From: a bacterium
Lineage (GTDB): Bacteria; UBA4055
Reading direction: 5' to 3'
NCBI GenBank assembly: GCA_029559475.1
Contig: JAKQBN010000055.1
Coordinates: 105,849 to 169,848 of the forward strand
Length of the DNA: 64,000 bases
This document shows positions 4,081 to 64,000 of the stretch, piece by piece. Position numbers and translations under genes: made by a program. The notes below the pieces were generated by a model, which did not search any database, had not been told where the DNA came from, and saw only the letters and a list, made by a program, of their open reading frames with translations. Position 1 is the first letter of the stretch; every line of letters starts with the position of its first letter.

Positions 4081-5178
4081 ATGAAAAGCCATTCAGATAA
4101 AAACACAAAACAACCAAAACTCCGCTTCCCCGGTTTCACAGAAGAGTGGCAGGAAAAAAGACTGGGGGAAATTGGGAAAATAACTACGGGTAGCACTCCG
4201 AGCACTTTCGTAGAAAAATACTATAACGGGGAATACCTATTCGTATCTCCTTTCGATATTAGTGATAAGAAATATATTTTTACTACACAAAAAACGCTTA
4301 CTGAAGAGGGATTTAAGAAAACAAGAAATATCAAAAAATGCAGTGTATTATTTGTTTGTATAGGTTCGACAATAGGAAAAATTGCCGTAGCGGGTACGGA
4401 TTTAGCGACAAATCAACAAATCAATGCAATAACATGCGAGCATGAAGCCCAGAACGAATTTGTTTATTACTCGTTATTGAAGAAAGCAGATCAAATAAAA
4501 CTCATGGCTGGAGAGCAAGCCGTTCCGATAATAAATAAATCAAACTTTGAAACTGTTAAGTTACCAATGACTTCACCAGCAGAACAAAAGAAGATCTCAG
4601 AATTCCTTTCCGACATAGACACAAAGATCGAAAAACTCACCCGCAAAAAAGAACTCACCGAGCAGTACAAAAAAGGAGCAATGCAAAAAATCTTCTCGCA
4701 GAAAATCCGCTTCAAAGATGATAACGGAAAAAATTATCCTGACTGGCAAGAAAAGAGGCTGGGTGAGGTGGCTACGATAAAAAGAGGAGCAAGCTCTCAA
4801 TATTTAAAATATGTTAATAATTCTTCTGAAGGTGTAAGGCTGATTAGAATCACTGATTTCTTAGAAAGTGAACCAGTATTTATCAAGGAGAGTCTAGAAT
4901 TAGATAGGTTCAAACTAAAAAAAGATGATATCCTTATTGCAGGTACTGGAGCAACAGCAGGTATTACTTTCAAAGTACCAGATAAATTTATCGGTATGGT
5001 TTATAGCTATAACGTTCCTCAGATCACTCCTGTTTCATGTGATCCTAATTATTTAATTCAATTTCTCAAGTCCGATTCGATCTCTAAACAACAAGAAGGT
5101 TTATTTACAGGTAATGCACAGCATTTTTTAGACATAAAGGCAATTTCAAACTTGAAATTACCTTTACAATGTGCATAA
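4081..5178 (+). pseudogene. hsdS: Type I restriction specificity subunit, 5' part, interrupted by IS21
   Basis: HsdS recognises the target DNA through two target-recognition domains (TRDs). TRD1 begins at WQEKRLGEIGKITTG (about residue 20). The central conserved helix is AEQKKISEFLSDIDTKIE (about residues 165-185). TRD2 begins with the matching WQEKRLGEVATIKRG (about residue 222). The gene stops right after LKLPLQ, exactly where the second conserved helix should start. The last codons (Cys, Ala, stop) come from the IS21 left end, which begins at 5170. The missing 42 residues are found at 63736-63864 on the minus strand. Joined, they give a 405-residue protein of normal length. As it stands the subunit lacks its distal spacer helix and is probably inactive. 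Confidence 0.93.
5165..5169. repeat. Target-site duplication (tacaa), hsdS 5' side
   Basis: This is the 5-bp sequence next to the IS21 left end. The same 5 bp, in the matching orientation, abuts the right end of the second IS copy at 63865-63869. The uninterrupted hsdS codons read tta-caa-tgc across this point. Confidence 0.85.
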
Positions 5179-5297
5179 TTCTTGCGAAAGTGACCAGTCA
5201 ATTCCTGTCAAAGTGTTACAGATAATCTGATATAAAATAAAAGTTTTCCACTTCAAGAACTCCTATTATATTCGCTCCGAACAAAAGAGGAGCGGAT

Positions 5298-6929
5298 ATG
5301 TCAAACAGGAGGCTTGATATGATAAATGTTCAACACCTGATACGGCAACTGGCTGAAGGCAAGTCGTATCGGGTAATAGGCACAAATCTGGCGATATCGC
5401 CGACAACTGTCAAGAAATATGCGAAGTATATCAGAAAGAACGGTCTTAATGTCGAAGAGCTTAAGGGAAAACCGCCATCCGAGCTGGAGACTATTATAGA
5501 CATAGCGGATCCTGCAGAAAGGCAACGAGCGGAAGAAGCTTTAACATGTATCAGGAAACATGAAAGTTCTTTGGTTGCAAGGCGGCTGACACGAAAAGAT
5601 GTCTATGAAAAATATAGAATAGATATAGAATCTCCTCTAAGCTACAGCCGTTTCTGCGTAAAAGTAGAAGATGAACTTAAGAAAAGCGGCGCAACAATGC
5701 ACTTTAATCACAAGCCAGGCGACAAGCTGTTCGTTGACTTTGCCGGAGACAAGCTGTGTTATTATGAAAAAGAGACAGGCGAGAAGATATCTGTTGAGGT
5801 CTTTGTGGCTGTTCTCGGACACAGTCAGAAGACCTTTGTCTTTGCGGTACATAGCCAGTGTAAAAACGATTTTATAGAGTCACTTAAGCGTGCGTTCGAA
5901 TACTACGGAGGTATACCATGCGCGATAGTACCGGACAATCTGAAATCAGGCGTAAATAAAGCAAGCTTATATGAACCTGAAATGAACAGGAGCTTCAAAC
6001 ACTTTTGTGAACATTACGGCTGTTTTGCTTATCCCGCAAGGCCGCGTTCTCCAAAAGACAAGAGCCTTGTCGAGAATGCCGTAGGCAGAATGTACAGAGA
6101 CATTTACACGCACATAAAAGCCTGTAAATACTACTCGATGGAAGAGTTGAATGCGGCTATACTTGAAAAGCTTGAAGAATCGAACAATAAACCGTTCCAG
6201 CGTCGTGATTACAGCAGAAATGATCTTTTTGAAAGTAATGAAAAGGACTGCCTTAAGCCGTTGCCTTCAAACGAATATGAGACAGTAGATTTTTACAGTG
6301 CCACAGTCAGGCGCGATTATCATATCTGGTTCAGGCCTGACAAGCACCAGTACAGCGTACCTTATGAATACATAGGCAAAACATTAAAAGTTATTTACAA
6401 TACAGATACCGTAGAGATATTTTACGGATACACAAGAATAGCCTTGCATAAGAGAAACAGATCAAGATACGGCTTTACCACAAACCCTGAACATATGCCG
6501 GCAAATCATAAATACATGGCTGATCTTACTCCTGAAAATCTGATGAAGAAAGCTGAAGAAATAGGCGTTTATACATCATCTGTAATCGAAAAAATACTCG
6601 GATCAGGCAACTATTATGATCAGAGAATAAGAAGCTCAAGAGGAGTACTGTCGCTTGCAAATAAGCTCGGAAAAGAAATTATGGAACAGTGCTGTAAACG
6701 GGCTTTATCATACGGTATTTATAATTACAGACAGCTAAGAAACATAGCGGATATGAAGCTGTATCTTGAAGAAGATATAACCGTAACCGGCGGGTATATA
6801 GACAACCATCAAAACAAGAGAGGTGTTGAATATTATTTTGCGACACTTTTACAGGAATCGTGTGACACTTTGACAAGAATCAGCTACAATAATACAGAAA
6901 TACAAACGAAAACGGAGGCGGAATGTTAA
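5298..6929 (+). CDS. istA: IS21-family transposase IstA
   Basis: This is the DDE transposase that cuts and joins the element's ends together with IstB. An N-terminal helix-turn-helix (about residues 12-45, SYRVIGTNLAISPTTVKKYA) precedes a catalytic rve-type core. In the core D of VDFAGD, D of PDNLKSGV and E of LVENAVG form the D-D-E set (about residues 150-265). The length of 543 residues is normal. The first ATG has GAGGAG upstream, and a second ATG seven codons later also has a good AGGAGG site, so the exact start is open. The last 30 or so residues are encoded by DNA that resembles the element's own right end. Confidence 0.95.
   Translation: MSNRRLDMINVQHLIRQLAEGKSYRVIGTNLAISPTTVKKYAKYIRKNGLNVEELKGKPPSELETIIDIADPAERQRAEEALTCIRKHESSLVARRLTRKDVYEKYRIDIESPLSYSRFCVKVEDELKKSGATMHFNHKPGDKLFVDFAGDKLCYYEKETGEKISVEVFVAVLGHSQKTFVFAVHSQCKNDFIESLKRAFEYYGGIPCAIVPDNLKSGVNKASLYEPEMNRSFKHFCEHYGCFAYPARPRSPKDKSLVENAVGRMYRDIYTHIKACKYYSMEELNAAILEKLEESNNKPFQRRDYSRNDLFESNEKDCLKPLPSNEYETVDFYSATVRRDYHIWFRPDKHQYSVPYEYIGKTLKVIYNTDTVEIFYGYTRIALHKRNRSRYGFTTNPEHMPANHKYMADLTPENLMKKAEEIGVYTSSVIEKILGSGNYYDQRIRSSRGVLSLANKLGKEIMEQCCKRALSYGIYNYRQLRNIADMKLYLEEDITVTGGYIDNHQNKRGVEYYFATLLQESCDTLTRISYNNTEIQTKTEAEC
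6841..6887 (+). repeat. Internal copy of the IS21 right-end sequence within istA
   Basis: About 46 bp here match the outer right end at 7704-7751 with only a few differences. Shared blocks are GACACTTT, ACAGGAATC and GACACTTTGACAAGAATC. The copy lies in frame and encodes the istA tail (CDTLTRIS). Confidence 0.75.
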
Positions 6930-7675
6930 ACGAAAATACATTGTCAAAAATGAAAGAGATGAACCTGACAGGAATGTATGATGCATTTAAGCTAACTCTT
7001 AGCCTGAATGACTATAAGAAAATGACTTGCGATCAGCTAGCGGCATCTCTTGTTGACGCAGAATACGATAACAGGCGAAACAAAAGACTTGCCCAAAGGT
7101 TAAGTACAGCTAAGTTGCGTTATCCGGCATCAGCTGAACAGGTTGACTTTAATGCGGATAGAAAGCTCGATAGAAACCTGTTCATGAGACTTACAGACTG
7201 CAACTACATCAGACAGGCTGAGAATGTTATAATCAGCGGTATGACGGGCACAGGTAAAAGCTATATAGCCTGCGCATTAGGACATCAGGCTTGTATAGCA
7301 GGATATAAAGTTATATATCACAACTTCAACAAACTCATGGCTAAGCTAGTAATGTCAAGAGGAGACAACTCGTATCTAAAGGAAATAAATAAGATAGCCG
7401 GCTACGATCTTTTAATCATAGATGACTTCGGCCTACAAACAATGGATCATGCCTCAAACATATCACTCCTTGAAATACTCGAAGACCGCTACGGCTCGAA
7501 ATCTACGGTCATAGCTTCTCAGATCCCGCCTGAAAACTGGTATGCTCTCTTCAATAGCTCAACTATAGCTGATGCCTGCTTAGACAGAATAATACATAAT
7601 GCGCATAAAATGGATATTACAGGGGAATCTATGAGAAAGAATAAAAAGGTTGCAGCGAAGAAAAAGAATGGTTAA
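6923..7675 (+). CDS. istB: IS21-family ATP-binding helper protein IstB
   Basis: IstB is an AAA+ ATPase that bends target DNA and activates IstA. Walker A is GMTGTGKSY (about residue 106) and Walker B is LLIIDDFG (about residue 163). The N-terminal segment before them matches the IstB N-terminal domain. At 250 residues it is of normal length. It overlaps the end of istA by 7 bp, so translation is probably coupled. The lysine-rich tail (RKNKKVAAKKKNG) lies 76 bp from the element's end. Confidence 0.95.
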   Translation: MLNENTLSKMKEMNLTGMYDAFKLTLSLNDYKKMTCDQLAASLVDAEYDNRRNKRLAQRLSTAKLRYPASAEQVDFNADRKLDRNLFMRLTDCNYIRQAENVIISGMTGTGKSYIACALGHQACIAGYKVIYHNFNKLMAKLVMSRGDNSYLKEINKIAGYDLLIIDDFGLQTMDHASNISLLEILEDRYGSKSTVIASQIPPENWYALFNSSTIADACLDRIIHNAHKMDITGESMRKNKKVAAKKKNG

Positions 7676-7751
7676 ATTTTAACGGGTTCAGGAGGTGGAA
7701 ACTGTGACACTTTAAACAGGAATCAGTGGGACACTTTGACAAGAATCTACA

Positions 7752-9505
7752 CCTGTATAATTCTGGCTGGTTTGAGAAGTGCTAACATTTGAGTAGGATC
7801 GCTGGCTTGGGCTAAAAGTATAACTCGATTTACTCGGAGTTATAACTCCTGTCCAGATATCTGTTGGAACAGATAATGAATAATCACCGTTTGAATCTGT
7901 TGTTGTTGATACTATTCCATTGGTTCCTGATAACGTTACACCGCTTATTGTTGCGCCTGAGCTGTTTGTGATCCTGCCTGAAATTACATTTGATGATTCA
8001 CTAAAATTTAATTTAAAAGAATACGGAAAAGCGAATGTGTTTGCTGTGGCAGTTCCTATGATTTTTAAATAAATGTCACTGTTGTATAACAAAGAATATG
8101 AGAACTGAATGTTAGTGCTAAATGTACCGAATTTAACTTGAACTAGGCTGCCATTATTATTCTCATATAAATAGTACGTATTCACACCTGAAGCGTTTGG
8201 ATAAAGATTGACGGTGACACTACCTGGTTTGTTATTGATATATCTATACATATCTTGATCTGATGAACCGCCTCCTGATTGAATAGTTACTGATCCATTA
8301 TATTCTATATTGTTGCTTATCGTATATGCCAATTCTTTAGTTGATGGTTCATCCATTCCTCGGATTAAATGACGGTAAGCGTCACATTCATCATTATGCT
8401 CTAAATTTACATTTAAAGTGTCAGATATATTCAAAGGTACAATATTACCAGTTTCATTTCTTAAATACTGGCGACTATATAAAACACAGCCATCACCAGG
8501 ATCTTGAGGAATTGGATTCAACCAGTTCGCTGGGTTCTCACCATCATGTGAATTAGAAGCTATCCAAGTATACCGAATATTTGGTGGTAATGGCATATTA
8601 GTATTATAACTAAACGAAGCACTACTTAAGTTGAGACCGACAATGTTCGAATTAATAGCACTATCGCAGTTGATGTCCCTATTAAAATAATCATCCAATG
8701 AACTAGACCATTCTTTACCACCAAATAGATAAATTCCGTCTGCGCCAGCATCAAAAGAATATTTCAAATCTCGCATAGCTTCAGAATGTATATTTGGTGG
8801 TGTTTCAGATTTCTGATCGTAATACTTTGTATTAGAAGGATCGAATCCTGAGTTTGATCCAAGATGAGGTGTCCCTATAGTAACTACTCGTGCAACTTTG
8901 TGTCCGTTTATGTTATCAGAAGGATTTACCCACCACTTATGATTAGTGCTTGTTGTACCGTCTATTGTTCTTTGGAGATATTCTCTTATAGCAAGGCCAC
9001 CCATAGAATGCCCAACTAGTATTACTTTCTCCGAGTTCGTAAAATCGATTACTTCAGTTATCATTTTACTTAACGCATATCCCTGCTTAAAAATCGCCGA
9101 TTCATTGCTATGGTCAAACTGATCATTCCACCACCCATCTGCTGCCTTTATTCTTTCTTCTTTGAAATTGATCGCAAAAATATAAGAATCTGGATCCCAA
9201 TCATACAAACTATAATTAAATCTTCGTGGTCCAAGTATTATTGTTTTATCACCATATACTGTATCAGACCATTTGACATCGTTTTCGAGCACAGAAGTAT
9301 CGTTAGCATTATCGAAATTTAGTATAACATCATATGAATTTATGTTTCCCCAATCGTAATTACCACTATTCAAATAATTCATCGTTTCTTGAAATGACTC
9401 ATCGCTACCGACTAGTCCGTGAACGAAAATAATAGGATATGGAGGTTTTGCTCCATAAATTAATGTTGTTAACACGATAATGAGAATCAACAATATTTTC
9501 TTCAT
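7752..9505 (-). pseudogene. Secreted alpha/beta-hydrolase (lipase-like), C-terminus cut off by IS21
   Basis: A signal peptide (MKKILLILIIVLTTLIYG) leads into a lipase core. PIIFVHGLVG carries the oxyanion region, VGHSMGG (about residue 166) the serine nucleophile elbow, and VTIGTPHLGS follows as in PGAP1-like and triacylglycerol lipases. After about residue 380 comes a beta-rich region, then a carboxypeptidase-regulatory-like domain (SGRITNSSGATISGV...). The authentic sequence ends at QNYTG. The last residues before the stop at 7712 are read from IS21, whose right end is at 7751. The reading frame therefore continues 40 bp into the IS, and the true C-terminus is not in the window. The enzyme core is intact, so a shortened protein could still be made. 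Esterase or lipase activity is inferred from the motifs. Confidence 0.85.
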
Positions 9506-9680
9506 TTTCCCCTCTCCTTACTCTTGTATTTAATTTTTTTAATTTTTGATATATCAATGTTATAAAAAACTTGTGCTTATAATCCGTACTTCTTCTATAC
9601 ATTTCTTACTTTCTCAAACTTATAATAATTTAATTTAACATTTCTCAGTTATCTGTTTCAACTGTTTCCGTATTATTTTT

Positions 9681-9700
9681 TATTTTTTCCATTTTTAGCT
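9681..9700 (-). repeat. Conserved 20-bp element downstream of TPR paralogue 1
   Basis: Read on the minus strand this is AGCTAAAAATGGAAAAAATA, located 11-30 bp after the stop of the upstream gene. It matches the element at 11115-11134 in 19 of 20 positions. Confidence 0.5.
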
Positions 9701-9710
9701 TCGATTTTTG

Positions 9711-11036: not shown

Positions 11037-11114
11037 TTTAATTTTCGGTTAATGTTTTATAAGCAAAATTTAATGCATAAAAAAGCTGAATTCAATTATT
11101 GCCGGATATTTTTA

Positions 11115-11134
11115 TATTTTTTCCGTTTTTAGCT
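11115..11134 (-). repeat. Conserved 20-bp element downstream of TPR paralogue 2
   Basis: Read on the minus strand this is AGCTAAAAACGGAAAAAATA, located 27-46 bp after the paralogue 2 stop. It differs at one position from the element at 9681-9700. A looser similarity extends a further 25 bp or so to TTGAA. Confidence 0.5.
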
Positions 11135-11160
11135 ATGTTTTTAAAAATATGAAATAACTT

Positions 11161-13278: not shown

Positions 13279-13416
13279 ACATAACCCCTCTTAATTTATT
13301 ACTTTTCGCCAATATCGTTTTACATCACTTTTAGTGATAATTTATAAAAGACTGAATGAATAATCAAGATATATTAAACGTGATCGATAAATCAGCGGAG
13401 TTGAAATAATCTTAAA

Positions 13417-17325: not shown

Positions 17326-20300
17326 ATGAAGAGAATATTAATTTGGGCTCTGTCGGTTATGTTATTCATCCCGGCAGCTGCGTTTTCGCAGTTCGCGGGA
17401 GGAGACGGATCGTCAGGGAATCCGTATCAGGTTTCTACTGCTGCTGAACTCAATAACGTAAGAAATTATCTCACATCTTACTTTATCCAGACAGCCGACA
17501 TTCAGCTTGGTGAATCACCCTGGAATCAGGGAGAGGGATGGAATCCTATAGGTACGAACTCTACGAGCTTTCAGGGTAACTATAACGGAGGCAATTACAA
17601 GATCCTGAACCTGACTATAAACAGGGGTCTTACTAACTATGTCGGCATTTTCGGATACTGCAGCAGCGCAACTCTGCAGAACATAGTCATTCAGTCTCCG
17701 AACATCACAGCGTACACAGCCATCGGGCCACTAGTGGGATACGCTTTAAACAGCTACATTTCGAACTGCGCGGTCATAGGAGGCGGCAGTATATCCGGTG
17801 AAAATTACGTCGGAGGTTTAGCAGGATGGATCGTTGGATCTAACATCTATTCAAGCTATACATACATAAACGTATTCGGTTTTGAAAGGATAGGCGGGAT
17901 GGTGGGAAGGTGCGATACTAATTCCAACATCGCGAACTCTTATTCCAGATCATATGTTTCGGCATCCAACGATTACGCCGGAGGTTTCGCGGGGTACTGC
18001 CTGCAGACAACTGTAGCGAACAGCTATTCCTCCGGTTATGTTGACTGCGTAGGGTCAGTCAAAGGCGGATTCATTGCGTATAATACTGTTACTGCTAACA
18101 TTACTGAATGCTATTGGGATACCGAAGCAAGCGGTCAGACTTCTTCTCCGGGCGGAGGTACAGGAAAAACAACAGCCGAAATGAAATCTCAGACAACTTT
18201 CTCAGCATGGGATTTTTCAACACCGGTATGGAAAATATATTCGTCCGTAAACGACGGATATCCTTATCTTGCATGGGGTGACTGGCCCGGCATACTAACT
18301 ACTATCGCCAGCCCGTCTGAGGGAGGTTCTGTTACCACCGGAGGAGCTTATGAAGAGGGGACGCCGGTATGGCTAGAAGCTTCACCGACAGCTCCCTATT
18401 ATCAGTTCAAAAACTGGACGGATAATACATCGGCCGTCATTTCGACCGATCCGAACTTCGTATATTATATGCCGGAAGGAGATATGACCCTGACGGCGAA
18501 ATTCGAAAAATATTTTTCTGAAGTCAGCGCCGGATTTAGAGATGTTGCGGAAAGCACAACAAGCTGGTGCGATTATGATAACGACGGCGATCTTGATGTT
18601 CTTGTTGTCGGCTGGAACGGCGCATCAAGCAAAGTTGCAGAAAGAGTTGCAAAAATTTACAGAAACGACGGCGGTGAAGTTTTTACAGATATAAATGCCG
18701 GTCTGATTCCGGTTAGATATTCATCTTGTGCCTGGGGTGATTATGATAACGACGGTCTTCTCGATCTGGTAGTTTCCGGTTGGGAGAGTTCGTTAGTAAG
18801 TACAAGAATTTATAAAAACTACGGTAGTGATCAATTCTATGATGTTGGTGCCGGATTACCCGGGATCAATTCAGGTTCTGTCGCATGGTCGGATTACGAT
18901 AATGACGGCGATCTCGATCTCACTCTAAGCGGATGGTGCCCTTCGCAGGGACATAATATTACGAACATTTATAAAAACACGAACGGCAGCTTTACCGATA
19001 TAAGCGCAGGTTTAACAGGGTTGCAGTACAGCTCGATAGCATGGGCGGATTACGACAATGACGGCGATCCTGATCTGCTGACAACAGGATTAACTGACGG
19101 TTCGACGACACTGACCGTTCTCTACAATAACAATAACGGTATTTTTACAGATGCCGGAATAGGCCTTCATAATCTTCATAACGGATCAGTTGCGTGGGGT
19201 GATTATGATAACGATGGCGATCCTGATATACTTCTGACGGGCCAGGAAACAGGTGGAAAACAATATACTGAGATATACAGGAACGATTTAACAGGTTTTA
19301 CAGATATAGACGCCGCTACCGATTATGCGTCATGGAGTTCTGCAGCATGGTGCGATATCGATAACGACGGAATACTTGATATCATTGTTACCGGAAAAAA
19401 TCCTGATGAAATTAAAATAGCGAAAGTTTATAACATTTTCAGTGATACAGTTTATGAAAAAACAAATATCGCATTCGAAGGAGTACACTGGGGATCTATT
19501 GGATGCGGTGATTATGACAATGACGGGGACTCAGATATTATTATTTCGGGGTACGACAGCATAGAACATGCTGTAACAAAACTTTACAGAAATAACCACC
19601 ACCCGGTTAATACTCCGCCTTCAGCTCCTGCCAATCTTGCTTGGACGCTGTTCGACAATGATGTTACTTTATCATGGGACAGGTCGACAGACAGCCAGAC
19701 TTATGATATGGGTCTGACATACAACATCTATGTCGGTTCATCGCCTGCGAACGGAAATACGAAAAGCTCAATGAGCGATAATTCTACCGGTTTCAGAAAA
19801 GTAGTGCAGCTCGGAAATGCGGGTCAGCTTAACTCTTATACAATTAAGGACCTTCCGCTGGGAACATACTACTGGAGCGTCCAGGCGATTGATCCGTCCT
19901 ATAAAGGCTCTCTTTTTGCGACCGAAGGTACATTTGTCGTAAGTTCATTCACCGAAATGACGACATCGCTCCCCGGTCTCGGGAATAGTTATAATTCATG
20001 GGGAGACTACGATAACGACGGCGATCTTGACGTTATTGTTTCCGGAACGACCGGAACAGCCAGACTTACTGAAATATTCAGGAATGACGGCGGAGGAACT
20101 TTTACCGATATCGACGCCGGTATTGTGAATGTATGGTACAGCGCTTCAGCCTGGGGCGATTATGATAACGACGGAGATCTAGACCTCGTAATTTCCGGAC
20201 ACACAGGCTCGGTAAGAACTGCTAATATCTACATGAATGATTCAGGCGTATTTACCGATATCGGCGCAGGACTTCCCGGAGTAAATGCCGGATCTTTAGC

Positions 20301-23300
20301 ATGGGGCGACTATGATAACGACGGCGACCTTGATCTTCTGCTGACAGGTTATAACGGTACTTCCGCTATTTCAGCATTGTACAGAAACGATTCGGGAGTT
20401 TTTACCGATACCTCAGCCGGTATAACAGGCGTCTATAAATCTTCAGGATCATGGGCGGATTACGATAACGACGGCGATCTCGATATTCTGATCACAGGAC
20501 TTGTTACAGGTGTGACAAGAGTAGCAAAAATTTACAGAAATGATTACGGTTATTTCTTTGAGATTTCAGCGGGGTTAACTGGAGTCCAGGACGGAACTTC
20601 GGCTTGGGGCGACTTTGATAACGACGGCGATCAGGATATACTTATGACCGGAAACGGTATTGCTAAGATATACCATAACAACGGTTTCGACAATTTCTCA
20701 GAATGGGATGCCGGATTTACCGGCGTAAATTTTTCTTCAGCTGCATGGGGAGATTACGATAGCGACGGTGATCTCGATGCAATTATATCCGGTTTAGCAG
20801 GCTCAGAGAAAACTGTAAAAATATACCGTAACGAAGGCTGGGGTTTTACGGATATCGGTGCCGGCCTACAGGGTATTCAGGACGGATCAGTTACATGGGC
20901 TGATTACGACAATGATAATGATCTTGATGTCTTTTACACCGGAACTGCGGGAACTACAAAAACATCGAAACTTTACAGGAACAATGCTGTTATAAAAAAT
21001 ACAACACCTTCAGATCCTGTAAATCTTTCTTCGGTAGTTCATACGGACGGATCGGTTACTTTCTCGTGGGATAGAGCGTCTGACAATGAAACACCTCAGT
21101 ACGGACTTTCCTATAACCTTTACATTTCTTCAACGAGCATGGGCCTGGATCAGATGACACCTATGAGCGACCTGACTAACGGATACAGAAGAATTGTAAA
21201 CACAGGAAATATGTGCCAGGCAACTTCTTGGACGATCAAAGACCTGCCGACCGGACATTTCTACTGGAGCGTACAGGCTGTTGACCATAACTTCGCCGGC
21301 TCAAATTTCTCCGGAGAACAGGAGTACAGCTCATTTACTAATATTAATGCCGGATTAGAAGGCATACATATCGGAGACGGCGACTGGGGTGACTTCGACA
21401 ACGACGGTGATCTCGATATTCTTTTGACAGGGTACGAGAGTTCATACGGTCCGTTCGCAGCGGTTTATCGTAATAATATTGGAACAAAGATGTCCGAGTT
21501 TTCAAACATATCAGCGGCATTAGAAGGAGTTTACGAAAGTGCTTCCGAATGGGCAGATTATGATAACGACGGAGACCTCGATATAGCTTTGTGCGGATAT
21601 TCATACACCTACGGTTACACAACAAGGATCTACCGTAACGATTCCGGTGTATTTACTGATATAAATGCTCCGCTTCAGGGTGTCCAAGATGGTTCTCTTA
21701 ATTGGGGCGACTACGATAATGACGGTGACCTGGATCTTCTTTTGACTGGACATAACGGTAGTTATTATGTGTCTAAGGTTTATCGCAATGATTCAGGTAC
21801 TTTTAGTGACATCTCAGCTCCGTTAGAAGGTGTTTACAACGGATCTGCGGAATGGGGCGATTATGATAATGACGGTGATCTCGACATTGTATTATGCGGA
21901 TATAACGGGTCATACACTATTTCCAAAATATACCGTAATGACTCTGGATCGTTTACAGATATTTCAGCCCAGATTATAGATGCATATTACGGCTCGATTG
22001 ACTGGGGAGATTATGACAACGACGGCGACCTCGATATTCTTTTAAGCGGATATTCATACACCTCTGGCATCATAACAAAAATCTACCGTAACGATTCTGG
22101 AACTTTTACAGATATAAACGCAGCTCTTGCCGTTGTACATGCCGGATCGGCTTACTGGGGCGATTATGATAATGACGGGGATCTTGATATCGCTTTAACC
22201 GGTCATAACGGATACGGGGGAACTTCAAAAATATACCGTAATGATAATGGTATCTTCACAGATACGAATGCTCCTATTATGAGCCTTTACTGGAGTGATT
22301 TGTCATGGGGTGACTATAACAATGACGGAGCACTTGACCTGCTTTTATGCGGTTATAACGATTACGACGGTTCATATTATTCCATAGTTTATGAGAACAA
22401 TTCTATCATTACTAATCCGGTCGTCAGCGCTCCGGCCGATCTTGTTATTTCAGGCAAACTGAACGATGCCGTATTCAGTTTTACTCCGCCTGCAACGAAA
22501 TCTCCTGCAGAAAGCTATACATACAATATGGATATTTCTATCGCTGGAATCAATGTTAAAACCTCTATGGCAGACATCACTACCGGGCAAAGAAAAGTCG
22601 CTGAGATCGGCAACCTGAATTTTGGTAATTCTGATTTTAAAAAAGGTCCGGTAGCATCTTCCTGGAATCTTCTGAAGAATATGCCTAACACAATACTGCC
22701 GCAGGAAGTTCTTCTTGTAGAAGCTGCTGTACAGTCAGTAGATCATTCTTATACAGGATCAGCTTTCACTTTTGCATTTGAACATCTTCCGAATAGAGAT
22801 CTTAAGACTCTGCCGAAAGAAGTAATGGTCCGCACAGATGAACTGCTCTGGGAATTATTCTGGTCGGACTCTCTGCAAAGCTATACTCTTCAAATGGATG
22901 AAGATCCTCTCTTTAACAGCCCGTTCGAAGAAACGCAGTATCTTGTCAAAAATGATCCTAAGATTATCTATGTAGCTGTTGAACTCCAGGATCTTTCTTT
23001 CTTCAGCAGCATGACCGACAACACGACCTATTACTGGAGAGTAAGACCGAATCATGTTAACCACAGTAAAGAGACCGTTTTCAATTCAGCTCCGGATTCT
23101 TTCATATATAATCCGGTTCTTTCTGCTCCTCTGAATGTAGCTGTCGCAAGCATTGACGGCAACAGCGTCGTTCTTACCTGGGATCCTGTACCGCTTCCGA
23201 ATGTTGAATACAGCGTTTACAGTGCGAACATGCCTTATGCGGTTTTCCCGGCAGAATGGACGCTCGAAGCCTCTAAACTCGGAAATACGACTTGTACGGT

Positions 23301-23394
23301 TAATTCGGGCGGTGCTGCAATGAAATTCTTCATCGTTACTGCTACAGATGGAATGAAGTCAGTAACTATTAAGAAAATTTCAGAAAGAAAATAG
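17326..23394 (+). CDS. Giant secreted FG-GAP/VCBS-repeat protein with three seven-repeat blocks
   Basis: This 2022-residue exported protein has a signal peptide ending near AAAFSQ (residue 22). Residues about 60-270 are GLUG-type repeats (YVGGLAGW, YAGGFAGY). Residues about 325-395 resemble a divergent InlB B-repeat (GGSVTTGGAYEEGTPV, MTLTAKF). Then come 21 repeats of the Ca2+-loop type DYDNDGDLD followed by a hydrophobic strand, in three groups of exactly seven (about residues 415-735, 890-1200 and 1353-1670). Fibronectin-III-like linkers (PSAPANLAWTLFDNDVTLSW) separate the groups. The tail has more Fn3-like sequence and no obvious sorting signal or anchor. The FG-GAP/VCBS family forms seven-bladed propellers that bind protein or sugar ligands, so a role in surface adhesion is likely. 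Frequent D-x-D-x-D loops predict heavy calcium binding. Confidence 0.92.
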   Translation: MKRILIWALSVMLFIPAAAFSQFAGGDGSSGNPYQVSTAAELNNVRNYLTSYFIQTADIQLGESPWNQGEGWNPIGTNSTSFQGNYNGGNYKILNLTINRGLTNYVGIFGYCSSATLQNIVIQSPNITAYTAIGPLVGYALNSYISNCAVIGGGSISGENYVGGLAGWIVGSNIYSSYTYINVFGFERIGGMVGRCDTNSNIANSYSRSYVSASNDYAGGFAGYCLQTTVANSYSSGYVDCVGSVKGGFIAYNTVTANITECYWDTEASGQTSSPGGGTGKTTAEMKSQTTFSAWDFSTPVWKIYSSVNDGYPYLAWGDWPGILTTIASPSEGGSVTTGGAYEEGTPVWLEASPTAPYYQFKNWTDNTSAVISTDPNFVYYMPEGDMTLTAKFEKYFSEVSAGFRDVAESTTSWCDYDNDGDLDVLVVGWNGASSKVAERVAKIYRNDGGEVFTDINAGLIPVRYSSCAWGDYDNDGLLDLVVSGWESSLVSTRIYKNYGSDQFYDVGAGLPGINSGSVAWSDYDNDGDLDLTLSGWCPSQGHNITNIYKNTNGSFTDISAGLTGLQYSSIAWADYDNDGDPDLLTTGLTDGSTTLTVLYNNNNGIFTDAGIGLHNLHNGSVAWGDYDNDGDPDILLTGQETGGKQYTEIYRNDLTGFTDIDAATDYASWSSAAWCDIDNDGILDIIVTGKNPDEIKIAKVYNIFSDTVYEKTNIAFEGVHWGSIGCGDYDNDGDSDIIISGYDSIEHAVTKLYRNNHHPVNTPPSAPANLAWTLFDNDVTLSWDRSTDSQTYDMGLTYNIYVGSSPANGNTKSSMSDNSTGFRKVVQLGNAGQLNSYTIKDLPLGTYYWSVQAIDPSYKGSLFATEGTFVVSSFTEMTTSLPGLGNSYNSWGDYDNDGDLDVIVSGTTGTARLTEIFRNDGGGTFTDIDAGIVNVWYSASAWGDYDNDGDLDLVISGHTGSVRTANIYMNDSGVFTDIGAGLPGVNAGSLAWGDYDNDGDLDLLLTGYNGTSAISALYRNDSGVFTDTSAGITGVYKSSGSWADYDNDGDLDILITGLVTGVTRVAKIYRNDYGYFFEISAGLTGVQDGTSAWGDFDNDGDQDILMTGNGIAKIYHNNGFDNFSEWDAGFTGVNFSSAAWGDYDSDGDLDAIISGLAGSEKTVKIYRNEGWGFTDIGAGLQGIQDGSVTWADYDNDNDLDVFYTGTAGTTKTSKLYRNNAVIKNTTPSDPVNLSSVVHTDGSVTFSWDRASDNETPQYGLSYNLYISSTSMGLDQMTPMSDLTNGYRRIVNTGNMCQATSWTIKDLPTGHFYWSVQAVDHNFAGSNFSGEQEYSSFTNINAGLEGIHIGDGDWGDFDNDGDLDILLTGYESSYGPFAAVYRNNIGTKMSEFSNISAALEGVYESASEWADYDNDGDLDIALCGYSYTYGYTTRIYRNDSGVFTDINAPLQGVQDGSLNWGDYDNDGDLDLLLTGHNGSYYVSKVYRNDSGTFSDISAPLEGVYNGSAEWGDYDNDGDLDIVLCGYNGSYTISKIYRNDSGSFTDISAQIIDAYYGSIDWGDYDNDGDLDILLSGYSYTSGIITKIYRNDSGTFTDINAALAVVHAGSAYWGDYDNDGDLDIALTGHNGYGGTSKIYRNDNGIFTDTNAPIMSLYWSDLSWGDYNNDGALDLLLCGYNDYDGSYYSIVYENNSIITNPVVSAPADLVISGKLNDAVFSFTPPATKSPAESYTYNMDISIAGINVKTSMADITTGQRKVAEIGNLNFGNSDFKKGPVASSWNLLKNMPNTILPQEVLLVEAAVQSVDHSYTGSAFTFAFEHLPNRDLKTLPKEVMVRTDELLWELFWSDSLQSYTLQMDEDPLFNSPFEETQYLVKNDPKIIYVAVELQDLSFFSSMTDNTTYYWRVRPNHVNHSKETVFNSAPDSFIYNPVLSAPLNVAVASIDGNSVVLTWDPVPLPNVEYSVYSANMPYAVFPAEWTLEASKLGNTTCTVNSGGAAMKFFIVTATDGMKSVTIKKISERK

Positions 23395-45679: not shown

Positions 45680-46414
45680 ATGAAGTATCTGATATTCTTT
45701 GTCGTCTTAGCTGCAGCTGCGACCCAAAGTCTTTTTTCGCAATTCGGTGTAGACGCGGAAACAGGCATACTCGCTACCACTTACAATAACGTGAGAATAG
45801 CCGGATATACGGGAACAAAGTTCTCGCTCTGCGACGATCTGGAGGATGATCCCGTTTTCTTTTACCGTATCAGGCTTAATTACCTTTTAAAAGAAAAACA
45901 CTTCTTTTCTCTCCTATACGCGCCTCTGACAATTAAGTCAGAAGGTTCTCTTGATAGAAACATTTATTTTATGGAAACATCATATCCGGCCGGAACTGAG
46001 CTGGACGCCAGCTTCAGATTCAATTCATACAGGCTGACCTACCGCTATGAATGGATAAACAGTGAAAATATAGAATTCGGAATAGGCTTTACCGCAAAGA
46101 TAAGAGATGCGGAGATCAAACTTAAGAGCGAACATATCTCCAGAAGCAAAAAGAATGTCGGTTTCGTGCCTATCATCAATTTCAGGTTCCTCTGGAAGAT
46201 CACAGATAAGATCGGATTTCTTACAGAAGGTGACGCTCTCGCTGCTCCTCAGGGCCGTGCTGAAGATGTTCTTGCCGCAGTTACTTACAGAACCGGAGAT
46301 CATCTGACCGTCAAGGGCGGCTACAGGATCCTTGAAGGCGGCGCTGACAACGATGAAGTATATACTTTCTCGCTTATAAATTACGCTGTACTGGGATTTA
46401 TATACAATTTCTGA
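45680..46414 (+). CDS. Probable outer-membrane beta-barrel protein
   Basis: The 244-residue protein has a signal peptide (cleavage near LFSQ, residue 21). The mature part alternates polar and hydrophobic residues in strands and ends in an aromatic residue (FIYNF), as outer-membrane barrels do. I cannot name a family. It is followed 23 bp later by another exported protein, and the two are probably co-transcribed. Confidence 0.6.
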   Translation: MKYLIFFVVLAAAATQSLFSQFGVDAETGILATTYNNVRIAGYTGTKFSLCDDLEDDPVFFYRIRLNYLLKEKHFFSLLYAPLTIKSEGSLDRNIYFMETSYPAGTELDASFRFNSYRLTYRYEWINSENIEFGIGFTAKIRDAEIKLKSEHISRSKKNVGFVPIINFRFLWKITDKIGFLTEGDALAAPQGRAEDVLAAVTYRTGDHLTVKGGYRILEGGADNDEVYTFSLINYAVLGFIYNF

Positions 46415-55305: not shown

Positions 55306-55341
55306 TTTATTATCCCAAGAATATTATTTTTATCGTTTCCA

Positions 55342-56262: not shown

Positions 56263-56267
56263 CCCGA

Positions 56268-58047: not shown

Positions 58048-58071
58048 TAATCTCTTATCTCCCTTTACTTG

Positions 58072-58097
58072 TACACAAACATTCACTGCAGCTATCC
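58072..58097 (-). repeat. hsdS 3'-end footprint, copy 3
   Basis: Read on the minus strand this matches the last 26 bp of hsdS (copy 1) at 22 of 26 positions, including GAATGTTTGTGTA. It starts 1 bp after the NADAR stop and ends 25 bp before the epimerase start. Confidence 0.7.
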
Positions 58098-58098
58098 A

Positions 58099-58827
58099 TT
58101 AATTCTCAAACAACTTTTTCTGAACATCTTGATGGCAGGTTGCATATTCTGTTGATTCTATCCAATCAGGGTAATCTCTAAGCATGTCTATGAATTTGTT
58201 TCGATCCTCTAAAACTTGTTTAAGTAATCCACGGCGACTAAGCGACACGAACAATGCTACCGAATAGGCTTGGCAGTTTACAGATTTCTTAGGATTGAAC
58301 TCTATATCAGTGAAGCAATCATATTCCAATACTTGTTTTGCTACAGCAGGATTTTTGGATACACTATTGAGATATAACCAATCATAGAAAATCGTCATTG
58401 GTTTGATTGGCCAATGCTGACCGTATAAATCGAATCCTACTAATGCACCTAATTTTTTATCGTGAAAAAACTTTTTCGCTTCATTTGCTGACTTAGTATA
58501 AAGCTCATGAAAAGGTCCTGATAATTCAAAAATCTTGCTCCCTTGAAAAGCGGATTCAACAGATAAAAATTTTTTGCTCTTCGGGTGCGTGAACCCAAGA
58601 TTAAAAGCACTAAGTTTTATTCCCAATTCAGAAGGTGATTTACTCGATATTTCAAGAATTCTACATGGTCTTTTCTTCTTTACGGCATAATGTAACGAAT
58701 CTATAGATTTTTGCTTTTGAGATATTGCCATACCAGGGTACCAGTCAAAGTCCACAAGTACTACTTCTACTGCTGGTAACTCCAGACTAGAAGATTGCTG
58801 TACAAAAAATACCGGTCGCTTAGCCAT
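58099..58827 (-). CDS. NADAR-domain antitoxin partner of DarT
   Basis: The ATG at 58827 has AGGA upstream. A GTG 12 bp earlier is possible. It overlaps the DarT stop by 8 bp. The 242-residue protein resembles the DarT-associated NADAR antitoxins: VESAFQGSKIFELSGPFHELY (about residues 90-110), then EAKKFFHDKKLGALVGFDLYG and the PIKPMTIFYDWLYLNS segment. NADAR enzymes remove ADP-ribose from guanine in DNA and counter DarT1-type toxins. The assignment rests on these motifs plus the DarT gene directly upstream. Confidence 0.75.
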   Translation of the reverse strand: MAKRPVFFVQQSSSLELPAVEVVLVDFDWYPGMAISQKQKSIDSLHYAVKKKRPCRILEISSKSPSELGIKLSAFNLGFTHPKSKKFLSVESAFQGSKIFELSGPFHELYTKSANEAKKFFHDKKLGALVGFDLYGQHWPIKPMTIFYDWLYLNSVSKNPAVAKQVLEYDCFTDIEFNPKKSVNCQAYSVALFVSLSRRGLLKQVLEDRNKFIDMLRDYPDWIESTEYATCHQDVQKKLFEN

Positions 58828-59524
58828 TGTTCCTATCACCTATGAATAAATTAGAATTAACAGTGAACGGAGGAAGTTTAGTGTTCACAGTAAGAGAAAT
58901 TGCGGCACGAAACCGACTTGCTTCCTCCTGTGTTTCAAAGAAAACCTCCGAAATACATTCCGTAGATATTTGTCCTTTTACTAGTACCTCAGCCTGTACA
59001 TCTGTAGGATGGTAATCTTTAATACCTTTTCTTGATAAAACCGTCTGATGGTTTATATTGCCGGAGATTAGATTGTCTTGAAATAGAGACAAAAAAGTTG
59101 TGTATTTCCCGTTTATGCCGAATTCTTTCGATACTGATGAGGCAGCATTTCCAATAGAAAATAAAGTGCTTTCGTACCAAAGACATTCCGGATTGAGAGA
59201 GATAACGCACCAACTGTCGCACCAGTTTTTGCATGAATTTCTGAATTTCTTAAAAAGATAATAATTAGGATGTTGTATGGAAAGATTGATGTAGTCATTA
59301 AGATTGTCTAGACGGAGGCGATCGTTTACTTCCACATAATCTTCAAGATGAAGTTGAGGATATTCTACGGTCAATTTTTTTAGCTGTTCCCGTGACAAAA
59401 TTGAACCTTGTTCGTAAATACTGATTAAATTGATAGCAGGCGTAAAATGCACAACACGATTAATTCCGCGTCTTTCGACTTCGTCTTTAAATGCTTCAAT
59501 ATCACTCTTGAAAACTACTGGCAT
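58820..59524 (-). CDS. darT: DarT-like DNA ADP-ribosyltransferase toxin (DUF4433)
   Basis: The 234-residue protein has DarT features: VVHFTPAINLISIYEQGSIL (NAD-binding start, about residues 20-40), a central Trp/Cys-rich region, and DVQAEVLVKGQIS (about residue 180), whose Glu is the catalytic residue in DarT. DarT transfers ADP-ribose from NAD+ to single-stranded DNA bases. The NADAR partner points to the guanine-modifying DarT1 branch (established for that branch, inferred here). It starts 1 bp after the UvrD-like gene, so toxin, antitoxin and helicase share one transcript. Confidence 0.8.
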   Translation of the reverse strand: MPVVFKSDIEAFKDEVERRGINRVVHFTPAINLISIYEQGSILSREQLKKLTVEYPQLHLEDYVEVNDRLRLDNLNDYINLSIQHPNYYLFKKFRNSCKNWCDSWCVISLNPECLWYESTLFSIGNAASSVSKEFGINGKYTTFLSLFQDNLISGNINHQTVLSRKGIKDYHPTDVQAEVLVKGQISTECISEVFFETQEEASRFRAAISLTVNTKLPPFTVNSNLFIGDRNNG

Positions 59525-59525
59525 T

Positions 59526-60944
59526 TTATTCCCTCTCCACAGTAACAGGATCTATTTCTGAAAGATAACGACTGGGCTGCCCAGTGTAAATTATGTGAAG
59601 AGTCTCACGAGCCCTTGTCATACAGGTATAAACCAATCTGCGCTCTGTTGAAATATGAAGCTCATCGTTCTCGTCACTAAAACCCTGCGGATATGGAATA
59701 AGATCATCATTCATATCACAAAGGAACACATGGTCGAACTCAAGACCTTTAACAGAAGGCATGGTACATGTATATAAACCAACAGAATGAATTTCTCTAA
59801 CTTGCGGTTCTATAATATTTAAAGGATTAAATCCAGCTGATTTTAGATCAAAAGACAAATTTGTATTGCCTTGGCGGTTACGGTGTAGAATTGCAGCTGA
59901 TTGCTTTGTAAAATCGATTTCTTTTAATTTTTTTATAAGAAATTTTTTCTGCTCGCCGTTCGGCAGAAACAATATTTTTGGCTTTGGGCCATCCCTTTCA
60001 GGCAGTACATGTTCTGAAAAATCAGACTGCTGAGGATCATGTAACAGAAGCGAAACAGCCGCATCTGCAACTTGACGGGTATTACGGTAATTGTGTTTAA
60101 GCTCAACAGTACGCCCGCCCCTAATGTTTATTCCCAGTCCTGACCAAGTAAAACCGCTCTTGTAGATCCTTTGTGCTGCATCTGCGATTATGGTTAGACT
60201 ATTAGTTTCAGAATTAACAAGCTTTGTAATGACAACGAGTTGAGCAGGAGTCAGATCTTGAGCTTCATCTACCACGATATGGCTAAAAGGTGGTTTAAAA
60301 TTTGTATCTTTTTCAAGGTATTCAATAACCAGCAAAGCATAATCGTCAAAGTCAACACAATTCCTTTCTTTGAGTTTACGGCAGTAGTCGGAATAGAGTT
60401 TCCATAACAGCTCTTTGTCTTGTGAAGTTACCCTGTCTGCAGTTCCCCTACCTACTCTTTTGGCTTCAAGATACTCCTCTTGTGATGTTGTCTGCCGTCC
60501 TTTTAACCAGGAAATTTCTTCTTTGTAGAACTCAGGCGTTTTAGAAAGAATTGCTCTTTTTGGGTAGATCGCTCGTAACTCAGTAAGGCAGGCTGAAATG
60601 ATGTCACAAATTAAATTATCCTTTGCTACACTATGATTCAACCAGAAATTTTTATTCCAAAGAAAACTATAAGCCCATTTATGGAAAGTCGCGACTTGAA
60701 TACGATTCTGGTAATTTACATCGTTTCCCATTATACAACGAACATATTTAATCAAGCTGTTAGAATATGAAAAAATGCATACCCTTGTTACTCGAAATAA
60801 ATCATCTGTGTTAGCTAAAAGATGTTTCGCCCTGTATATTGCAACTGTCGTTTTTCCACTACCGGCAACTCCCTTTAATTGAATAGGATTAACTAGAGGA
60901 AGAGTTAGTATCCGTTTCTGTTCGCCAGTTAAAGTTATAGACAT
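59526..60944 (-). CDS. UvrD/Rep-like superfamily 1 helicase
   Basis: The 472-residue protein has Walker A GVAGSGKTT (about residue 25), Walker B VVDEAQDLT (about residue 228), LKHNYRNTRQVADAA (motif IV region), VKGLEFDHVFL and RRLVYTCMTRARETLH (motifs V-VI). It is shorter than UvrD (about 720 residues), lacking much of the 1B/2B insertions. Short SF1 helicases of this kind occur in defence loci such as nuclease/helicase pairs. There is no nuclease motif. It lies between a SIR2 gene and darT. Confidence 0.88.
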   Translation of the reverse strand: MSITLTGEQKRILTLPLVNPIQLKGVAGSGKTTVAIYRAKHLLANTDDLFRVTRVCIFSYSNSLIKYVRCIMGNDVNYQNRIQVATFHKWAYSFLWNKNFWLNHSVAKDNLICDIISACLTELRAIYPKRAILSKTPEFYKEEISWLKGRQTTSQEEYLEAKRVGRGTADRVTSQDKELLWKLYSDYCRKLKERNCVDFDDYALLVIEYLEKDTNFKPPFSHIVVDEAQDLTPAQLVVITKLVNSETNSLTIIADAAQRIYKSGFTWSGLGINIRGGRTVELKHNYRNTRQVADAAVSLLLHDPQQSDFSEHVLPERDGPKPKILFLPNGEQKKFLIKKLKEIDFTKQSAAILHRNRQGNTNLSFDLKSAGFNPLNIIEPQVREIHSVGLYTCTMPSVKGLEFDHVFLCDMNDDLIPYPQGFSDENDELHISTERRLVYTCMTRARETLHIIYTGQPSRYLSEIDPVTVERE

Positions 60945-61006
60945 TCAATCTCCGTCAATTTCATAAAAATAATCATTACAATTCTCCATTATATAGTTCT
61001 TATTCA

Positions 61007-62194
61007 TTAAGAAACTACGTTATCATCATGAAATATTCTTTCAATTGACTCAAGATTAAATCCATCCATGCATAATTCAGCTTTATTGTAATCAACGAAT
61101 CGGTAGTGTTCTTTGTATTTTTCAATATCCTCTAGTGATTTTTGATAATCAACTAGTATCAAAGGTGTTTTTTTATGTCCACATACATCTTTATTCCAGT
61201 AAGCCTCTTGGTAATTCTTTACAAGAGAATAAATAATCTGACTTGCATAGACATCATGCGCTGGTAGCGAGTAACCAATAATTGACATCCCAAAGTTCAG
61301 GTATCCTGTATCGCCAAGACCTCTCCAAAAATCTCCTATTCGATTCGCATAAATAATTTTATTTATTGAAGGTGTCAGAAGATATGGTGTAGCCTGAAAC
61401 ATTATATTCTGACCATATAAATGTTCAATTTCAGAGACACGATATATATCATTGAGTGGATCGTCTTCAAATCTAGGACCATCAACTAATTTTGACAATC
61501 TCAATTTAGCATCAATCCCAAAAATCACATCATCCGGAGTTTTATCATATCCTTGCTCTTTCCAAGCCTGAATTGTGCTTTTATAATTTTTCTTGCTGAA
61601 CCAGTCTATAGAACCATGATATTTTAAAATCACTACTTCCTCTTTACTTGAATCGATAGTACCACCATATTTATTTATTGATTCGTAACGATATGGAAAA
61701 AGACGATATGATTTTCCAATTTCATCTAATGCCCTTTCTAATAAGGTATCGTAATTAAAAGTAAATATGTAATCATTCGGCTCGAGTCTCTTTGCAAATT
61801 CAATATATTCCTGAGGAATTTTACCCGGTTTTGGCATGTAACCGCTAAGAAATTCACCAATTAGAGTCTTCACAACGACTTGTCCTTCATTCCCATCTTC
61901 GCTCCATGTGTCTTTACCTCGCAATCCAAGAAAATGCTCAATATCTAAATAGCCTAGAAACTCTTCAAAATTGATAGTATCCCTCTTTAATTTAACTCCC
62001 TTGCAATCATAACAGTATTTAAGATAAGCTTCAATATCGTCATTTAGCTTACTTGCTCGTCCAGTTAAGTGATCACATCTTTTAAGAATTACCTTCCAAA
62101 GTTCATCAGCTAAAGGAATGCCCGCTGCTTTCGAGAATCCTGCACCGAGAATAAATATTCGATATTTGTTATCTGCAGTCAATCTTCGCCTCAT
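61007..62194 (-). CDS. SIR2-like NAD+-binding protein
   Basis: The 395-residue protein has the SIR2 signature FILGAGFSKAAGIP (about residues 13-26), TFNYDTLLERA (about residue 145) and KYHGSIDWFS with the catalytic His. The rest of the Rossmann-like domain extends to about residue 310. In defence systems (Thoeris ThsA, DSR, SIR2-HerA) SIR2 domains degrade NAD+ after infection is sensed. Here its ATG overlaps the upstream unknown gene's TGA by 4 bp, so the two are likely a working pair. Confidence 0.88.
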   Translation of the reverse strand: MRRRLTADNKYRIFILGAGFSKAAGIPLADELWKVILKRCDHLTGRASKLNDDIEAYLKYCYDCKGVKLKRDTINFEEFLGYLDIEHFLGLRGKDTWSEDGNEGQVVVKTLIGEFLSGYMPKPGKIPQEYIEFAKRLEPNDYIFTFNYDTLLERALDEIGKSYRLFPYRYESINKYGGTIDSSKEEVVILKYHGSIDWFSKKNYKSTIQAWKEQGYDKTPDDVIFGIDAKLRLSKLVDGPRFEDDPLNDIYRVSEIEHLYGQNIMFQATPYLLTPSINKIIYANRIGDFWRGLGDTGYLNFGMSIIGYSLPAHDVYASQIIYSLVKNYQEAYWNKDVCGHKKTPLILVDYQKSLEDIEKYKEHYRFVDYNKAELCMDGFNLESIERIFHDDNVVS

Positions 62195-62772
62195 TCTACT
62201 TCTTCATAAATATCATGATGATTCTCTTTCATATACTTAATTAAATTTCCCGGCTCATTTTTCAAATCATATTGACAGAAATTTAAGAATTTTATCCAAC
62301 CACCAAAACGATCTGAATATTTTCTAGAAACAATTGATTTTATAGCATTCGATTTGTGTTCAGGAGTTTGCACATATTGAATTTGTCTATGAGCATTCAA
62401 TTCCCAATATTCTTTTCTGTTAATAACATTTTTGCGACTCCAGCGATCAGGACAATTTCCGATCAATTGGAAGGATAACTGTGCCAATGTGGCAATCATA
62501 CGCTGATCAATATCATCAAATGATTTACAAGCTTTTATCTGCTTTATTCCATATTCGAGAAGTTCAATTAATTCATTAATTTGTCTTTTATCAGAAACCG
62601 TGATTGTTTCTGATATTGATATAATCAAAGATTTGAGAATTTTTGTATAATATTTCTTTGCATCAGGTATATCCTTATAGTTTTTCACAAGTGAATAATC
62701 CTTCTGACCATAAAGCCTTTGTATTAAAAGAGTGACTGCCATATTCGTTTTACGATCTTTTTCTATTTCCAT
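62191..62772 (-). CDS. Unknown helical partner of the SIR2 protein
   Basis: The 193-residue protein has no family I recognise and is predicted mainly helical (ISISETITVSDKRQINELIELL, KYYTKILKSLII). The ATG at 62772 is 10 bp past an hsdS-end footprint and has GGGGGC upstream. Overlap with the SIR2 start suggests a sensor or regulator for SIR2, which is inference. Confidence 0.6.
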   Translation of the reverse strand: MEIEKDRKTNMAVTLLIQRLYGQKDYSLVKNYKDIPDAKKYYTKILKSLIISISETITVSDKRQINELIELLEYGIKQIKACKSFDDIDQRMIATLAQLSFQLIGNCPDRWSRKNVINRKEYWELNAHRQIQYVQTPEHKSNAIKSIVSRKYSDRFGGWIKFLNFCQYDLKNEPGNLIKYMKENHHDIYEEVE

Positions 62773-62782
62773 GTTGCCCCCT

Positions 62783-62808
62783 TAAACAAACATTCCATGC
62801 TCCATTCC
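62783..62808 (-). repeat. hsdS 3'-end footprint, copy 2
   Basis: On the minus strand this resembles the last 26 bp of hsdS at 20 of 26 positions, encoding KGMEHGMFV and a stop, where hsdS itself ends KGLLQGMFV. A stop codon lies just upstream in that frame, so it is a non-coding remnant. Confidence 0.75.
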
Positions 62809-62862
62809 TTTCTTATTTTACTTTCAAAAAATTTCAAATAAAAGAACAAAGGATAAGCTTCG

Positions 62863-62976
62863 CTACTTAGTCCGCGATAGCCGAAAGCCGAAGTCGTTGT
62901 TGACGCTGTTCGGGTAGGGGCTGCCACGATAGGCGCATCGTATGAAGTCGTTGATGCTGAACCACGACCCCCCGCG
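62863..62976 (-). other. GC-rich C-terminal coding segment resembling a variable region
   Basis: These 37 codons plus stop are about 59% GC by hand count, while the surrounding DNA is AT-rich. They encode RGGSWFSIND...GFRLSRTK, the C-terminal ligand face of the FGE-fold protein. That face is the usual location of the variable region in diversity-generating retroelements. No template repeat or reverse transcriptase is seen in the window. Confidence 0.4.
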
Positions 62977-63705
62977 CAAAACACGGCCAAGGCCCGAACT
63001 TGGGCCTTTAGGATCAATCTGAGTACCACTGGGATAGTCTCCATACCAGTCAGAGCACCACTCCCAGACATTACCGCTCATATCGTAAATGCCAAGTTCG
63101 TTCGGCTTTTTTGTCGCTACAGTATGTGTCTTACTTTCAAAATTTGAACGATACCACGCGACCGCGTCAGGATCATCACTTCCGCTGTACTTATAACCCA
63201 TGCTTGCGTTGCCTCCCTTTGCTGCATATTCCCATTCTGCCTCTGTCGGCAGTCTGTATGTAACTCCCTCTTTCTGGCTTAGCCTCTTGCAGAATTCTAC
63301 CGCATCATACCAGCTAACTTGCTCAACAGGTAGGTCATCGCCTTTAAAATAGCTCGGATTGGTACCCATTACGGCTTTCCATTGCGCTTGAGTAACTTCG
63401 GTCTTTCCGATGTAAAAATCGCTTATTGTTACACTGTGAACAGGCTTTTCATTAACCAATCCATTTTCCCTTTCATTGCTCCCCATCTCGAAAGTTCCAC
63501 CTTCTACTAACACCATTTCAATTCCACTCGGTGTAATGTAATTACCGGGTTGTGGTTTGAAATTTTCTCGCAGTTTCAAAATTTCGTCATTGAATTTTTC
63601 CTGTGTTAGAATTCCTAATTCGTACAGGGGAATCAGATCTTGTAATTTTGAGAAATATGGTAAGACCTTTAAATATTCCAACTGTTCTTCAGTTAATTTA
63701 GGCAT
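62863..63705 (-). CDS. FGE-sulfatase-fold (SUMF1-like) protein without the catalytic cysteines
   Basis: The 280-residue protein has an N-terminal helical segment (about residues 1-55) and a formylglycine-generating-enzyme domain: VEGGTFEMGSNERENG, VEVTQAQWKAVMG-type helix, RLPTEAEWEYAA, DMSGNVWEWCSDWYG and RVLRGGSW, ending NNDFGFRLSRTK. In active FGE two cysteines follow the GGS motif, and here the matching positions are Ser and Ile, so oxidase activity is unlikely. Non-enzymatic members act as C-type-lectin-like binding scaffolds. It lies 30 bp after the hsdS stop, and an hsdS-end footprint follows it. Confidence 0.85.
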   Translation of the reverse strand: MPKLTEEQLEYLKVLPYFSKLQDLIPLYELGILTQEKFNDEILKLRENFKPQPGNYITPSGIEMVLVEGGTFEMGSNERENGLVNEKPVHSVTISDFYIGKTEVTQAQWKAVMGTNPSYFKGDDLPVEQVSWYDAVEFCKRLSQKEGVTYRLPTEAEWEYAAKGGNASMGYKYSGSDDPDAVAWYRSNFESKTHTVATKKPNELGIYDMSGNVWEWCSDWYGDYPSGTQIDPKGPSSGLGRVLRGGSWFSINDFIRCAYRGSPYPNSVNNDFGFRLSRTK

Positions 63706-63735
63706 ATCTAATTATCCTCCGTCAGTTATTTTATT

Positions 63736-63864
63736 TTACACAAACATTCCTTGAAGCAATCCTTTCTTAAATTCTTTAAGCATAGCTAATTCTTTTTCAA
63801 TCTGCTCTGACTTGCTTTCTATATTTGTTAAAAAATTCGCTATCTTTTTTTGTTCTTCTAAGCA
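63736..63864 (-). pseudogene. hsdS: Type I restriction specificity subunit, 3' part, separated by IS21
   Basis: The minus strand reads CLEEQKKIANFLTNIESKSE and on to KGLLQGMFV with a stop at 63736-63738. This is the C-terminal conserved helix of HsdS, with the same AEQKKI-type motif as the central helix of the 5' part. It begins right after the IS target duplication (63865-63869), in frame with LKLPLQ of the 5' half. The two halves give 363 + 42 = 405 residues. Confidence 0.93.
63737..63762 (-). repeat. hsdS 3'-end footprint, copy 1 (genuine gene end)
   Basis: These are the last 26 bp of hsdS itself, the source sequence for the two degenerate copies at 62783-62808 and 58072-58097, all in the same direction. 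Confidence 0.75.
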
Positions 63865-63869
63865 TTGTA
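63865..63869. repeat. Target-site duplication (tacaa on the minus strand), hsdS 3' side
   Basis: The plus strand reads ttgta next to the IS21 right end at 63870. It pairs with 5165-5169 as the duplication made when IS21 entered hsdS. Confidence 0.85.
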
Positions 63870-64000
63870 TGTAGATTCTTGTCAAAGTGTCCCACTGATT
63901 CCTGTTTAAAGTGTCACAGTTTCCACCTCCTGAACCCGTTAAAATTTAACCATTCTTTTTCTTCGCTGCAACCTTTTTATTCTTTCTCATAGATTCCCCT
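63870..64000 (-). mobile_element. IS21-family insertion sequence, second copy, right end only
   Basis: The 131 bp visible are the reverse complement of 7621-7751 without a difference. The element continues beyond the window and should extend to about 66,450. It is inverted with respect to the first copy. Confidence 0.95.
63946..64000 (-). CDS. istB: IS21-family IstB, C-terminal end (second copy, partial)
   Basis: These are the last codons of istB (ending RKNKKVAAKKKNG and a stop at 63946-63948), identical to the first copy. The 5' part lies outside the window. Confidence 0.9.
   Translation of the reverse strand, partial: GESMRKNKKVAAKKKNG

Follow-up and report, generated by a model that had tools for sequence, protein, structure and literature searches.

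An IS21-family insertion in hsdS, and a 56-kb segment probably joined backwards at a collapsed repeat

In the window analyzed here, a stretch of 64,000 nucleotides (G000:C37:105849-169848) from a draft genome of 83 contigs, the two parts of a type I restriction-modification (RM) specificity gene, hsdS, lie at opposite ends of a 56-kb segment, and each part abuts an end of the same IS21-family element. Was this segment inverted in the cell, or was it turned around during assembly? An earlier note had proposed that IS21 entered an intact hsdS, that recombination with a second copy then flipped the interval, and that the flip might be a large reversible phase switch, with assembly error as the alternative.

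One hsdS gene interrupted by an IS21-family element

The hsdS 5' part (4081-5178, + strand) encodes the two target-recognition domains, with two Methylase_S stretches in Pfam, as well as the central repeat. It is preceded by the C-terminal part of hsdR (2-544, +; EcoR124_C, PF12008), a gene that starts upstream of the window (C37:103549-106389), by hsdM (552-2099, +; N6_Mtase and HsdM_N), by a DUF1016/YhcG nuclease-like gene (2051-3217, +; PF06250 and PF17761) and by an RM-associated gene of 283 aa that lacks a Pfam match and has a relative in genome G005 (3218-4069, +). The DUF1016/YhcG gene appears to be exchanged among relatives; on L107, a Ca. Delongbacteria contig, the segment after hsdM (L107:2118-2951) matches a copy located upstream of hsdR in G005.

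The hsdS frame ends with LKLPLQ-CA* at the left end of the element, its stop codon lying inside the IS after 365 codons. The 3' part (CLEEQKKIANFL...GMFV) is found at 63738-63869 on the - strand. Joined at the shared duplication, the two parts give an uninterrupted in-frame HsdS of 405 aa, which reproduces the earlier result, and only in this joined form is the C-terminal conserved region of the protein present.

The element itself (5172-7751, +) is the sole complete IS21 copy in the assembly. Its genes istA (5298-6929) and istB (6923-7675) overlap at 6923-6929 in the manner of the IS21 family, and their products match rve (1.6e-10) and Mu-transpos_C_2 (6e-15) in the transposase and IstB_IS21 (3e-58). 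The ends are likewise those of the family, with TG...CA termini, terminal repeats (TGCATAATTCTTG.../...CAAGAATCTACA) and, on the hsdS sides, a target duplication (TACAATG) within the 4-8 bp range. An independent IS left end on contig C19, where the flank ...CTGCAGC is followed by TGCATAATTC, shows that the element starts at TGCATAATTC, about position 5172, and not at 5170 as first suggested. The duplication is thus probably TACAATG (7 bp) and not tacaa; the shorter motif does occur at both junctions, within TACAATG at 5165-5171 (+, from the junction and the C19 comparison) and at 63863-63869. On C19 (L034, 100-200), the IS left end may also provide the ATG start of the neighboring gene (ATGCAGCTGCAGAACGGAGAATC..., MQLQNGESYLVEFKED).

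The 7-bp duplication, the 405-aa joined frame and an intact relative with an FGE-like gene directly downstream establish that one IS21 inserted into one formerly intact hsdS, and this part of the original account is secure. The remaining 365-aa HsdS, which lacks the distal C-terminal conserved helix, is predicted from its sequence to be probably inactive. Such a disruption is ordinary: the istA/istB organization, the TG...CA ends, the similar terminal sequences, the short target duplication and the truncated host gene all resemble known IS21 insertions into type I RM hsdS genes, from which the present case, with a duplication that looks 7 bp long, does not differ in kind. Among the papers searched, none combined IS21, target site duplication and hsdS.

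Gene order in related genomes

The comparison with related genomes proposed in the earlier note bears on the ancestral order. In the family-level relative G005, the order hsdR-hsdM-orf-hsdS-FGE is kept and hsdS is intact (428 aa), with identities of 94.6% for hsdR, 97.5% for hsdM, 86% for the 283-aa gene and 55.7% for the FGE-like gene. The gene next to hsdS in G005 is FGE-like, and a gene of the same family (FGE/sulfatase-modifying-factor-like, 62863-63705, -; PF03781) immediately follows the hsdS 3' part in our window. Moreover, the joined HsdS and the intact G005 HsdS share the tail ELAxLKEFKKGLLQGMFV. A full copy of the IS21 was not found in close relatives, G005 having weak pieces only.

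In two genomes of the same genus (G002, contig C152; G001, contig C293), the genes for an RlmI-like methyltransferase and for a core protein, here called X, are directly adjacent on one strand, in the order RlmI(-)-X(-). In the present genome, the RlmI-like gene immediately precedes the RM locus, and X (45680-46414, +) is about 48 kb away, on the opposite strand as assembled. Flipping 7752-63869 returns X to the RlmI strand and places the whole defence island (taken as RM, FGE, SIR2-like, UvrD-like and DarT/NADAR genes) between RlmI and X. On these comparative grounds, hsdS5'-IS-hsdS3' is the ancestral order, since the same-genus adjacency of RlmI and X is matched by the orientation that flipping restores. 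A defence-like cluster at 58099-62194, made up of DarT and its NADAR antitoxin together with a UvrD/Rep-like helicase and a SIR2_2 protein, sits downstream of hsdS in this order. The neighborhoods of MutS2 and V-ATPase in the relatives, whose contigs are short, gave no link to the RlmI side. Synteny cannot separate a misassembly from a recent inversion because both start from the same ancestor.

One assembled IS copy and several competing flanks

The last base of the window (64000) is the last base of contig C37 (C37:169848; 169,848 bases), so that the contig end falls inside the IS and the sequence past 64000 is absent from the assembly. The second, inverted IS21 of the earlier note is therefore confirmed as to its right end at 63870 but not as a copy: the 131 nt at 63870-64000 (-) are inverted and 100% identical to the right end of the complete IS, and they represent a shared overlap and not an assembled copy. 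Unique DNA is joined through a full IS at one border only. The IS21 stubs at contig ends measure 131, 137, 138 and 140 bp (the C37 end together with C19, C62 and C20), and at the other end of C37, 137-141 bp are common to five other contig ends. The contig thus starts (L028:1-141) in another multicopy repeat, where six contigs of this genome have an end. We infer from these contig ends that the uniform overlap of about 140 bp was left by a de Bruijn assembly with k ~141, in which a multicopy IS of 2.6 kb could not be crossed. The C37 end (63855-64000) carries 131 bp of IS, compared with 137-140 at the other ends. Should the overlap be a single k-mer of fixed length, some 9-10 bases flanking the IS on the hsdS3' side (TACAATGCT) would also occur in a further sequence of the data set, a hint that this junction exists in strain variants.

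A pattern search of the genome recovered two left-end junctions, hsdS5' (TACAATG) and C19 (CTGCAGC), and four right-end junctions, those with the lipase gene (CCTGTAT), with C62 and C20 (TATCCTA and ATCTTAT) and with hsdS3' (TACAATG). A single full copy (5172-7751), probably a collapsed repeat, serves all of them, and no pair of flanks other than hsdS5' and hsdS3' carries a matching duplication. With four right and two left flanks for one assembled 2.6-kb IS, the link between hsdS5' and the lipase gene is the assembler's choice. This lipase-like alpha/beta hydrolase ORF (7752-9505, -; Pfam) adjoins the IS right end, and its frame extends 13 codons into the IS. The earlier placement of a second IS copy within it finds no support in the data: the matching left junction, CCTGTAT before an IS left end, was not found in the genome, and a search for relatives that would locate the missing part of the lipase gene returned none in 20 genomes.

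Hence, we favor, with a probability of roughly two in three, the reading that the IS21-broken hsdS is at its true site and that the assembler joined the 56-kb piece backwards. The element entered the C-terminal conserved region of hsdS and duplicated TACAATG, a step that the junctions document, within a defence island that would read hsdR-hsdM-DUF1016-orf-hsdS-FGE-SIR2-UvrD-DarT/NADAR. The real local order would most likely still be hsdS5'-IS-hsdS3'-FGE, and the same IS is present at several other sites. A short-read assembler may then have passed from hsdS5' into the collapsed IS and left it by a wrong right flank, that of the lipase gene. Since the lipase flank and the hsdS3' flank are the two ends of one 56-kb piece, that piece would have been joined backwards, and the contig would halt at the true hsdS3' junction. 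Against this reading stands a modest coincidence, given that there are three other right exits and that the one mimicking an inversion would be taken in about 1 in 3 cases of a wrong exit. The pattern otherwise resembles IS collapse in short-read metagenome assemblies, where contigs stop about one k-mer into a multicopy IS and one full copy stands in for several; it differs from the usual false joins in that the exit happens to be the same piece's other end, hence the look of an inversion. Repeats limit the contiguity of MAGs (PMC7283042), and the relation of genomic repeats to misassembly has also been treated (PMC5771137).

Inversion, phase variation and their consequences

The main competitor is a real 56-kb inversion by homologous recombination between the hsdS copy of IS21 and an inverted copy beside the lipase gene, either fixed or mixed in the population. 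Inversions mediated by IS elements are common; moreover, identical IS ends lie in inverted orientation at both borders, and the assembled and inferred ancestral orders differ in exactly this way. However, the sole link between hsdS5' and the lipase gene runs through an unresolved 2.6-kb repeat at a contig break, and the predicted lipase-side left junction (CCTGTAT plus IS left end) is missing from the genome; these two points make misassembly the likelier explanation, so that recombination, as put forward in the earlier note, retains a minority share of the probability and assembly error, its alternative, is now favored. GC skew along C37 is -0.08 in the 56-kb piece and +0.02 in the rest, but it tracks the strand of the genes and also switches sign inside the left part.

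A reversible switch of HsdS activity through the 56-kb flip is rejected as very improbable. Its geometry, with inverted repeats and hsdS parts at both ends, recalls phase-variable hsdS inversion loci, in which hsdS genes recombine with one another under an invertase to give alternative complete genes. In the pneumococcal cod locus, for example, hsdS inversions are driven by PsrA (PMC11709252). Here, in contrast, the repeats are whole ISs, and after recombination both borders still carry an entire IS; every product retains a complete IS at hsdS, and flipping thus cannot restore or change HsdS. The junction frame reads LQCA* irrespective of the sequence past the IS, so that the gene stays broken at the same stop codon in either orientation and no alternative complete hsdS results, unless flipping were coupled to precise IS excision. 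Furthermore, the surroundings of the locus showed neither an invertase gene nor a second hsdS cassette, and no recombinase is encoded among the genes adjoining either hsdS part. That the two parts are unrelated hsdS remnants lying at the two ends by chance can be dismissed: conserved regions are similar among hsdS genes, but the shared 7-bp TACAATG, the in-frame 405-aa join, the G005-like tail and an FGE gene next in both genomes speak against it.

Another observation in the 56-kb segment concerns an FG-GAP repeat protein of 2022 aa (17326-23394), whose gene holds about 18 repeat copies encoding a DYDNDGD-like motif, mostly spaced by about 150 nt.

The locus is a warning case: matching duplications at inverted IS ends that lie far apart can pass for proof of inversion, but an identical pattern results if a short-read assembler exits a collapsed IS through the wrong flank. 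If instead an IS21-mediated inversion did split the defence island, be it in every cell or in a fraction of the population, which we consider the less likely case, the FGE, SIR2-like, UvrD-like and DarT/NADAR genes would have been moved away from the RM operon. This would be an ordinary, neutral IS-mediated rearrangement leaving the HsdS product unchanged.
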